Shown here piece by piece: positions 33,360 through 57,397 of a DNA stretch of 64,000 bases. A program made the translations under genes and the position numbers. The notes under the pieces are model-generated. The model was not told the origin of the DNA. It did no database searches and saw nothing but the letters and a program-made list of their open reading frames with translations. Location of the stretch: positions 2,454,162-2,518,161 of the forward strand of contig NZ_LN851186.1 of the NCBI RefSeq assembly GCF_001243895.1, written 5' to 3'. Source of the stretch: Bacillus testis (GTDB lineage Bacteria > Bacillota > Bacilli > Bacillales > DSM-1321). Every line of letters begins with the position of its first letter. Position 1 is the first letter of the stretch.

Positions 33360-33668
<309 letters not shown>

Positions 33669-33675
33669 ATAATGT

Positions 33676-33825
33676 AGAAAAGCGGAAGGGCACGTTTAGC
33701 GACGTACAAACTGGAGCGTTTTTCTCGAGATAAAGGATACACAGCGAACGTAGAGAGCTGATGTTGACTTATCGTAGAGAAAAACGTAAAGTTTGCTAGG
33801 AGCTGTGCCCTGCAGCTGGATCACC
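33676..33825 (+). repeat. Dispersed 3'-end repeat, full unit A1
   Basis: Starts AGAAAAGCGG 7 nt after the fer stop and ends GCAGCTGGATC. It shares with the ugp copy: CGTTTAG, ACTGGAG, GAGATAAAGGA, TTGACTTATCGTA and CTAGGAGCT. Its terminal arms GGGCAC (33688-33693) and GTGCCC (33805-33810) are perfectly complementary. Confidence 0.85.
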
Positions 33826-33963
33826 GAAAAGCAGAAGCCCTCCGTTTAGCGACGTACAAACTGGAGTAGCTTTCTTTGAGATAAAGGAAACACGGCGAAG
33901 GTACGAGCCGATTTTGACTTATCGTAGAAGAAGATGCGAGGTCCCTGGCCGCCGGAGCTGGAT
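33826..33963 (+). repeat. Dispersed 3'-end repeat, unit A2
   Basis: Second tandem unit, about 138 nt, with all the shared blocks. Its terminal arms are only weakly complementary (GCC/GGC), so it may be decaying. Confidence 0.8.
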
Positions 33964-34005
33964 CAGAAAAGCGGTAGCCCTCAGTTTGCTCCATACAAAC
34001 AAAAG
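33964..34005 (+). repeat. Dispersed 3'-end repeat, truncated unit A3
   Basis: Only the first 42 nt or so (AGAAAAGCGG to TACAAAC) of a third unit are present. Confidence 0.65.
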
Positions 34006-34033: not shown

Positions 34034-34097
34034 AAAAGAAAACCACTAAATACCCATGGCCCGAATGAATATCGAGCACTGGTTATTTAGTGGTTTT
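34034..34097 (-). terminator. Terminator after the small lipoprotein gene
   Basis: AAACCACTAAATA pairs with TATTTAGTGGTTT (13 bp) around a 30-nt loop. The T-rich tail TCTTTTTGTTT is on the minus strand; the plus strand also has a short T-run, so it may serve both fer and the lipoprotein gene. Confidence 0.75.
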
Positions 34098-35126: not shown

Positions 35127-35194
35127 AGAAAATTCCAAGGTCAAATAAACGTTGTGCCTTTCATTTTTAAAAAGCAAAACGCTCGAACCTCCAC

Positions 35195-35333
35195 CTTCTC
35201 CCATCCAGACTATACTGTCGGCTTTGGAATTTCACCAAATCAACCAAGAACCCAAATTGCAGATTCAAGGCTCGCGGGCTCAGAAAATATTTCTTCACCG
35301 CCGGTCGGGAATTACACCCTGCCCCGAAAGTAG
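35195..35333 (-). ncRNA. FMN riboswitch (RFN element)
   Basis: Minus-strand sequence contains the conserved RFN blocks in order: TTCGGGGCAGGGTG, the segment ATTCCCGACCGGCGGT, then GCCCGCGAGCC, GGTGAAATTCC, CCGACAGTATAGTCTGGATGG in part, closing with GGGAGAAG. It sits upstream of ribU with a terminator between, as in B. subtilis ypaA. FMN should repress ribU. Confidence 0.97.
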
Positions 35334-35553
35334 ATCATTTAATTGTTTTAGTATTATAACTTCATAGCACATAAGTATGCACCTATAGCTATCTAGTTGA
35401 TTATATTTTAGCTCAAGGAAATCTAAAATACAAGAAATTAAATTTTTCAAATAGTGTAAAGGACGACAGGAAACTCTAATAGCCCACTTTCTATTAGCCG
35501 CATTATTTTTTAAAAATAATACATAATAAAGCGTTTACATAATCCGTGCCAAA
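35334..35553. other. ribU-serA divergent intergenic region
   Basis: A/T-rich. It should hold the ribU promoter, which I could not place, and precedes the serA promoter. No gene is seen. Confidence 0.5.
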
Positions 35554-55425: not shown

Positions 55426-55529
55426 AACCAGCTGAAACAATATGGGTTCGTGGCCTTGACTTGTTTCCTTTATCTCGAAAGAAAGGCACTCCAGTTTGTA
55501 CGTCCCTAAACGGTCACTTCCGCTTTTCT
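55426..55529 (-). repeat. Dispersed 3'-end repeat, truncated unit B2
   Basis: On the minus strand it starts AGAAAAGCGG at 55529 and shares CGTTTAG, GACGTACAAACTGGAG and GAGATAAAGGAAACA with unit A2, then diverges before the TTGACTTATCG core. Confidence 0.8.
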
Positions 55530-55532
55530 TAA

Positions 55533-55680
55533 TGTCCAGCTCCAAGCACCCAGCTCCTAGTGAACTTCGCATTTCTTTCTTACGATAAGTCAACATCGGT
55601 TCGTGCCTCACCGTGTTTCCTTTATCTCGAAAGAAACACTCCAGTTCATACGGAGCTAAACGGGTGCTTTCCGCTTTTCT
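55533..55680 (-). repeat. Dispersed 3'-end repeat, full unit B1, inside the ugp operon
   Basis: Starts AGAAAAGCGG at 55680, 2 nt after the ugpE stop, in the sense direction. Arms AGCACCC (55668-55662) and GGGTGCT (55551-55545) are perfectly complementary, while the corresponding arms in unit A1 are GGGCAC/GTGCCC. An inner hairpin GTGTTTC/GAAACAC is also present. Confidence 0.88.
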
Positions 55681-55682
55681 TT

Positions 55683-56495
55683 TTATTTTATCGCTCCTTG
55701 GGTTAGGCCTTCTTGTAGTTGTTTTTGTCCTGCGAATAGGAGAATTAGGGTCGGCAGGACGATGAGGATGACGGCGGCCATGACGACTCCCCAGTCGGAG
55801 GCGATTTCGTTTGACTGCATTTGCTTGATGCCAATTTGGACGGTCCGCGCCTGTTCGGTGTTGGTAACGAGGAGCGGCCAGAGGTACATATTCCATGTTG
55901 TCAGAAAGCCATAAACGCCAAGTGTGGCAATGCTTGTTTTCGATACCGGGAGGACGACATTCCAAAAGAAGCGGAAACGGCCGATACCTGCTACCTGGCT
56001 CGCTTCATAGAGCTCATGGGGAATGGTCTTGAAATTCTGACGCAATAGGAATGTACCGAATGCTAGCGTGAAGAATGGCAGCGTGAGCCCCAAGTACGAA
56101 TTGGTCCAGCCAAGGGCCTGGATGGTCTGGAAATTGGGGACCATCGTCGATTCCCACGGGACCATCATAGTGGCAACAAACAGAAAGAAAATGGCGTTCC
56201 GTCCTCTGAACGGGATGAAGACGAAGGCGAACGCCGCCAAACTCGAAAGCGCCACCTGCCCGGCCATGACGATTAACGACACGATTAAGCTGTTGATCAA
56301 ATATCGGAGCAGGGGCACCTTCTCAAATGCTTTGCTATAGTTTTCGAGCGAAAGAGAGCCTGGGAGCAGCTTCCCTTGGAGTACCTCCCCGCTGTTCATG
56401 AACGAAATCGATAGGGCGTAGAACACAGGAAACATGACAAAGATGGCGCAGATGATCAGCAATAAATAGATAACGGTCTTTCGGAGAGCGGTCAT
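55683..56495 (-). CDS. ugpE: ABC transporter permease UgpE
   Basis: 270 residues, six membrane helices, with the permease EAA loop (EASQVAGIGRFRFFWNVVLP). It overlaps ugpA by 4 nt (ATGA). The longer open frame to 56555 is rejected. Translation ends in GAIK, after which the repeat begins. Confidence 0.93.
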   Translation of the reverse strand: MTALRKTVIYLLLIICAIFVMFPVFYALSISFMNSGEVLQGKLLPGSLSLENYSKAFEKVPLLRYLINSLIVSLIVMAGQVALSSLAAFAFVFIPFRGRNAIFFLFVATMMVPWESTMVPNFQTIQALGWTNSYLGLTLPFFTLAFGTFLLRQNFKTIPHELYEASQVAGIGRFRFFWNVVLPVSKTSIATLGVYGFLTTWNMYLWPLLVTNTEQARTVQIGIKQMQSNEIASDWGVVMAAVILIVLPTLILLFAGQKQLQEGLTQGAIK

Positions 56496-57397
56496 TGGTA
56501 ATGCACCCTCCTTTCCCCAATCTTGAATTGCAGCCATGTCAGCACCAACACGCATAGGAACAACAGCACAGCTTGCGCACTCGCGCTGCCAACATTGTAA
56601 TTGATGAAGGCGTCTTTATAGATGCTGTAGACAATCACATTGGTGACATCGGTCGGACCGCCTTTCGTCAAAATATCAATTTGCCCGAATGTCTGAAATG
56701 CGTTGATCAATGTGACGATGATGACAAAGAAGAGTGTCGGTGACAGCATCGGCAACGTTATTTTCCGCAATTGGTACCAATAACCCGGCCCAGCGATCCG
56801 CGCACTTTCATACAAAGTGCGGTCGATATTTTGCAGCCCTCCCAACAAAACAAGAAAGGTGAAGCCGAGATTCATCCACACGGTAGCAAGCGATACCGAA
56901 AACAAGGCATATTTCGGATCGAGCAACCATTGGATGCCGCTCCAGCCGAACAGTTCGATGATCCGGTTAAACACGCCGATCGCCGGATTGTACATGAACA
57001 TCCAAATAATCGAGGAAGCGGCAACGCTCATGCCCATCGTCGAAGAAAAGAAGGTCCTGAAGATACCGATCCCTCTCAGCTTCTCGTTCGCTAGCAGCGC
57101 CAGCCCCAGTGCAAGAATTACGGTCAGCGGAACGGTGTACAGGACAAATCCGATTGTCGACTGCACGCTTTGCCAAAAGCCTGGATCCTCGAACAACCGG
57201 GTGTAATTATCGAGGCCCGTATAGGAAATCGGATTCCCCTGCGTGTCACTCCGGAATACACTGAGATAAAAGGTCCGAATCAACGGATAGACAAGGAATA
57301 CCCCAAATAGGATGATAGATGGCGACAGGTACAGCAGCCCGGTGCCGGCCGAAGCCAGATTGGACGTCCATCTGGCAGGAGGAACCTTGATGTTCAT
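56492..57397 (-). CDS. ugpA: ABC transporter permease UgpA
   Basis: 301 residues with six membrane helices and the EAA loop (ESARIAGPGYWYQLRKITLP). Start overlaps the ugpC stop (ATGA). Partner of UgpE in the membrane channel. Confidence 0.93.
   Translation of the reverse strand: MNIKVPPARWTSNLASAGTGLLYLSPSIILFGVFLVYPLIRTFYLSVFRSDTQGNPISYTGLDNYTRLFEDPGFWQSVQSTIGFVLYTVPLTVILALGLALLANEKLRGIGIFRTFFSSTMGMSVAASSIIWMFMYNPAIGVFNRIIELFGWSGIQWLLDPKYALFSVSLATVWMNLGFTFLVLLGGLQNIDRTLYESARIAGPGYWYQLRKITLPMLSPTLFFVIIVTLINAFQTFGQIDILTKGGPTDVTNVIVYSIYKDAFINYNVGSASAQAVLLFLCVLVLTWLQFKIGERRVHYQ

Follow-up and report, generated by a model that had tools for sequence, protein, structure and literature searches.

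Dispersed intergenic repeats are known from the Bacillus cereus group, where the families bcr1-bcr18 are partly transcribed in untranslated regions (UTRs) and bcr1, at 147-167 bp, is called MITE-like (PMC3446304; PMC2267715). REP elements are intergenic hairpin repeats that occur in arrays and are thought to be moved by Y1 transposases on single-stranded DNA (PMC3733652); they measure 20-40 bp and carry a GTAG or CGTC tag. A structured sequence of the Bacillaceae themselves, the Bacillaceae-1 RNA (RF01690), is filed as an sRNA gene, and its finders were unsure of its strand (PMC4333381).

The locus considered here lies in the window, i.e., the whole stretch of 64,000 nucleotides that was analysed, and holds copies of a repeat whose unit is one long six-helix hairpin of ~145 nt. 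The unit is similar in size to bcr1, a likeness drawn from published descriptions. As with REP elements and their RAYT systems, the units are intergenic hairpins that form arrays; unlike the short tagged REPs, they are ~145 nt long, contain multiple helices and run one way. The features that define MITEs, absence of coding capacity and terminal inverted repeats, are both seen in the units, the second imperfectly, and shortness and flank-copying linkers add to this likeness; unlike MITEs, the repeat has covarying inner helices with asymmetric loops and stands in head-to-tail arrays, and no autonomous partner was noticed. The Bacillaceae-1 RNA is likewise structured, intergenic and found in Bacillaceae, but its 67-nt model is unmatched by the units, and it is nested in the repeat rather than being the repeat itself. 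On balance we consider it probable that the repeat is a non-autonomous mobile element of many Bacillaceae, which is predicted to move at replication forks in the form of a folded single strand and to depend on an enzyme acting in trans. It represents a large covarying family across many genera without a matching Rfam entry, and offers a testable case of structured-repeat spread, of a strand that follows the replication fork and of siting at stop codons.

The earlier note had reported a 13-mer shared by four copies, and the window has exactly four occurrences of TTGACTTATCGTA, at 33, 33764 and 33914 (+) and at 55581 (-); allowing up to two mismatches gives five matches against 1.11 expected. 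Its description of two units and a fragment after fer, one unit and a fragment after ugpE, and a fragment at the left edge agrees with the unit anatomy (A1, A2 and a 5' partial; B1 and B2; 31-70). Both gene names come from that note and the gene coordinates from the list of open reading frames. The fer (ferredoxin) gene occupies 33405-33668 (+) with its TGA stop at 33666-33668, and the first unit begins in sense 7 nt past this stop, at base 33676. Unit A1 (33677-33820, +) is full length, with the arms GGGCAC/GTGCCC at 33688-33693 and 33805-33810, and was delimited by nhmmer and as an extracted unit; its helix P2 is mispaired, with CGAC on the left and GAG on the right. A linker, TCACC (33821-33825, +), leads to unit A2 (33826-33962, +; nhmmer and extracted units), which has lost part of its right arms, and a 5' partial unit seen directly in the sequence (33966-34000, +) closes the array. 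An inverted repeat followed by a T run, terminator-like in appearance, lies 3' of this array (34039-34097, inverted-repeat pair I17). On the other strand, ugpE (55683-56555, -) ends 2 nt before unit B1, which begins in sense at base 55680 and was placed by nhmmer and unit extraction at 55535-55679 (-); this unit is full length with the paired arms AGCACCC/GGGTGCT, and is followed by unit B2 (55433-55528, -; nhmmer), 3'-truncated at model position 95. The left-edge fragment (31-70, +; nhmmer and sequence) covers model positions 86-124 and represents the 3' part of a unit split by a 119-nt sister element; it is repeated in the scaffold across a single-N join. Compared with dinucleotide shuffles, the fold z was -6.28 for unit A1 and -7.97 for unit B1. 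Because P2 of unit A1 is unpaired and the right arms of unit A2 are partly lost, the window copies display covariation of the outer arms and not the whole fold. Rfam gave no match for the units in the window, and none up to E 5 in the array region; its sole match in the window is an FMN riboswitch (RF00050) at 35189-35335 (-).

The family is much larger than the window copies on which the earlier note was based. A BLAST search with unit A1 returned 102 matching pieces in the window's own genome and a covariance model (R1) returned 87 matches, which were merged by hand into 37 independent arrays, with places 1473, 29164, 705184 (one shared flank), 31024 and 707044 and core-only pieces excluded. 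In nhmmer searches of fetched stretches the arrays run head to tail with a period of ~150 nt, the longest reaching 11 units. In L034 (3213-4838), ~3.5 copies of a 454-bp block of three units make up an 11-unit array, which points to recent growth in tandem. The model matches 18 of 43 genomes of the family, the window's genome included, and the exact core pattern occurs in at least 118 stretches of named genomes from at least about 20 named genera, mostly Bacillaceae; among the matches listed are Siminovitchia, Neobacillus, Oceanobacillus, Virgibacillus, Pontibacillus, Halobacillus, Lederbergia, Lentibacillus, Cytobacillus and Niallia. When run on 80 of these core-pattern loci, the covariance model gave 117 matches. 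A shorter sister family, mostly 113-122 nt, has the same ends, GAAAAGCG and AGCTAGACA. Unit A1 had no match in plasmid and phage collections, from which near records may be omitted, and viral contigs had none to one exact core pattern. Papers containing pieces of the repeat sequence are unrelated, judging by their titles and the starts of their abstracts, and no description of the family was recognised in the literature on bacterial repeats, within a coverage that leaves most subscription journals outside.

The fold was assessed on 53 distinct full-length units extracted from the window's genome, 50 of which entered an alignment (alignment A1) on which a six-helix hairpin drawn by hand was scored. 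Units begin with GAAAAGCG and finish with AGCTRGA, and AGCNGNAG together with the arms of helix P1 forms their imperfect terminal inverted repeats. In this alignment 91.9% of cells are paired, both sides have changed in 24 of 39 pairs, and the covariation score was 0.413 against 0.183 in shuffles and at most 0.117 after sliding, while further pair types did not rise above the shuffles (187/500). In other genera (80 loci, 117 model matches) 35 of the 39 pairs show changes in both partners, and the score is 0.368 (shuffles 0.129; after sliding at most 0.059), in an alignment that was fitted to the model and leans towards it; helix P4 is the weakest there, at 72% paired. Covariation is strong in this genome and is seen beyond it, and the earlier note's observation of altered sequence with preserved pairing extends from the outer arms to five further helices, in keeping with its picture of a mobile-looking, maintained and structured element.

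Whole arms change jointly (51 of 53 units parsed), P1 appearing as TGACC/GGTCA, GGGCAC/GTGCCC, GACCTCC/GGAGGTC or GAACACCC/GGGTGTTC, and a few units are chimeras with mismatched arms. Such joint change, along with the imperfect terminal inverted repeats and flank-copying linkers of ~5 nt, would be consistent with a long-hairpin MITE moved by a DDE transposase, its covariation coming partly from hairpin-templated correction of one arm by the other and not from selection on a single-strand fold. We regard this as unlikely, since the asymmetric internal loops conserved in the aligned units would be erased by arm-by-arm correction, and the arrays run one way only.

The sense strand is the better folder in 52/53 units here and 88/88 elsewhere with RNA parameters, and in 53/53 and 86/88, respectively, with DNA parameters, counts that are not independent because the units are related. 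As both parameter sets favour the same strand, they do not separate a DNA from an RNA route. Counts of G-U versus A-C cells, a further strand test, were 97 vs 50 in alignment A1, 154 vs 77 in alignment A3 and 13 vs 7 in helices P2, P3, P5 and P6 only; they are not taken as proof of strand because they are blurred by alignment shifts.

The placement of the units relative to genes confirms that copies often begin right after stop codons. In the window's genome, with genes called by our own codon-based caller, 15 of 31 scored arrays have their start between -2 and +8 nt of a sense stop; this count omits the left-edge fragment, arrays with a cut first unit and seven places that are assembly duplicates or mere pieces. 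In other species 78 arrays were scored, leaving aside those less than 400 nt from the end of a locus. Of these, 48 have a sense upstream gene, and 22 of the 48 begin at -1 to +5; where the upstream gene is antisense (30 arrays), 26 begin at least 17 nt away and the other four are overlapping gene calls. Starts are concentrated at sense stops both here and elsewhere. Sense orientation to the gene, which the earlier note had seen in the window, does not hold as a rule: between same-direction gene pairs of other species there are 29 sense and 25 antisense arrays, with 19 more between convergent and five between divergent genes, and in the window's genome orientation follows the replication fork and not the genes.

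Of 34 arrays, 23 have a TAA in the 8 nt upstream, compared with 13.5% of non-coding 8-mers, and TAA also flanks 9 of the 16 scored arrays that lie away from a called sense stop, a hand-read figure for which the caller may have missed a few stops. These flanks away from called stops mean that a target preference can explain the stop-codon position. They bear on the suggestion, made in the earlier note, of a functional 3'-UTR RNA, according to which units are kept after stops because their RNA, once folded, would protect the 3' ends of mRNAs or shape them. Starts at sense stops (15/31 here, 22/78 elsewhere), the conserved asymmetric loops and the better-folding sense strand agree with that suggestion, and its parts concerning stop-codon starts and structure stand; the consistent sense orientation that it implies does not, given the near-equal sense and antisense counts, arrays oriented here against both the fork and the gene trend, and TAA flanks away from called stops. 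As a general account it therefore appears improbable, while a 3'-UTR role is possible for single copies, as distinct from the rule that places them.

Orientation in the window's genome was read from dnaA, located at 177.5 kb of the main scaffold. Thirty of the 37 arrays point against the replication fork (p 0.0002), whereas in 24 of the stretches the genes with 100 or more codons show the opposite trend, 149 being co-oriented with the fork and 37 opposed to it. In other species, where direction was taken from GC skew, the counts are 49 vs 37, a weak strand bias. Arrays against the fork average 2.8 units and those with it 1.7, the latter being seven arrays. Moreover, scaffold C9 contains at ~1.20-2.42 Mb a 1.22-Mb array-free stretch that includes the expected terminus, and such a gap arose in 0 of 20000 random placements, on a scaffold order that is uncertain because of single-N joins. 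Either insertion or the loss of badly oriented strong hairpins could produce the fork bias, and these data do not separate the two. Loss would be a matter of survival, in which arrays whose better-folding strand serves as lagging-strand template are deleted and the rest point against the fork. We treat this as a tentative possibility: it suits the better folding of the sense strand with DNA parameters too (53/53), the greater length of arrays against the fork and the weak bias elsewhere, where most scored arrays are single units, but the length difference rests on seven arrays, and the TAA flanks and linkers are left unexplained. Of 119 rows, 10 have a DnaA-box-like motif, TTATNCACA, within 75 nt downstream of the unit and one has it within 70 nt upstream; the motif sits ~20 nt downstream of units in L095, L116, L122, L123, L139, L140, L150, L153 and L161.

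Several observations suggest mobility. The 5' ends of units are precise. Many units in other genera have a conserved AT-rich END of ~40 nt on their 3' side, while arrays in the window's genome mostly terminate in a 5' partial unit and not in END; single units with END have possible flanking duplications in a few cases by eye, none of them established. The gap between tatA and tatC holds a unit with its 3' END in 2 of 30 tatC loci (one locus per genome), and in the closest other locus, L224, whose TatC is 85% identical, the end of tatA is followed by a terminator-like hairpin and a ribosome-binding site but no unit, giving one empty site in all, with tatA-tatC orthology read for three loci only. 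Furthermore, the linkers between units copy the local upstream flank: the mean shared suffix is 2.69 vs 0.76 across 29 arrays, with 0 of 20000 permutations as high, and the last 4 nt are identical to the flank in 10 of the 29 arrays against 0.96 expected. The strand bias against the fork in this genome, and the nesting of insertion sequences and sister elements in units, count on the same side. Taken together, the fold, the flanks, the linkers and the filled and empty site speak for mobility and for recognition of the element in folded single-stranded form.

A candidate enzyme was sought among known families. Of the 18 genomes with the repeat, 16 contain Y1 transposases (PF01797), as do 4 of the 25 that lack it (Fisher p 2e-6, shared descent ignored). 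In contrast to RAYT systems, none of the Y1 genes examined (21 of 47 matches) adjoins a unit, with none found within ~1.5-2 kb, and genome G002 has 13 repeat copies and no Y1 match. A RAYT-type origin was rejected, as 20 Y1 regions and L211 lack a unit and the two matches found were at chance level (E 1.7 and 4.4). Reverse transcriptases (PF00078, RVT_1) have no match in the window's genome and are found in 12 of the 18 repeat-bearing genomes and 13 of the 25 others (Fisher p 0.37); derivation from a group II intron or other retroelement was also rejected, given that absence and the lack of a link to the repeat. The core of integron attC sites is GTTRRRY, which GTTTAG does not fit, and judged by this core such an origin was set aside.

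For a mobile element that moves as a folded single strand, a new unit would enter at a resident unit's left edge, duplicating a short target (~5 nt), and insertion at this edge would build head-to-tail arrays. A preference for TAA, combined with selection against hits inside genes, may place copies at stop codons, and the fold would be kept because the single strand must be recognised; effects on upstream mRNAs would be a by-product or a later use. It is conceivable, though rather doubtful, that the repeat constitutes a new class of mobile element, a ~145-nt multi-helix hairpin that enters replicating DNA beside TAA as a folded single strand, with the fork determining the side, and preferably at the left edge of a resident copy, thereby building head-to-tail arrays that carry nested 119-nt sisters and Bacillaceae-1 RNA.

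Several kinds of sequence are nested in the units. Bacillaceae-1 RNA gave 12 matches in 9 of 26 scanned loci (L071, L075, L084, L087, L095, L102, L114, L135 and L157), all 12 surrounded by unit sequence by eye, many of the 26 having been chosen for holding units or showing an insert; the array-bearing loci L034 and L057 had no match to RF01690. In the loci seen here, this RNA is recast as a nested part of mobile repeats. Sites for the RNA-binding protein CsrA have been proposed for its reverse complement (PMC4333381), and the GGA within CTGGA and AAGGA is invariant across the 50 aligned units. Both would be consistent with a putative CsrA sponge, in which units offer GGA sites and arrays multiply them, an idea that we consider very improbable, as it accounts for neither the strand nor the insertion pattern.

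The 119-nt type of sister interrupts the unit core in several arrays (L045-L048, L056, L061 and L217). Single-N scaffold joins with duplicated repeat-bearing ends were noted in L031, L044, L048, L052, L056 and L217, and some apparent copies at such joins are likely to be assembly artefacts. Insertion sequences, with families assigned from Pfam domains, also occur within units. An IS110-family gene (DEDD_Tnp_IS110, Transposase_20) lies between unit halves in L052 (1883-3154) and L044, and since these insertions fall at the conserved core GATAAAGG, the insertion sequence seems to be aimed at the repeat. Similarly, an IS3-like element, a pair with rve and HTH domains, separates unit halves at GTACAAACTG in L032, L038 and L048, with an apparent duplicated target of ~10 bp.
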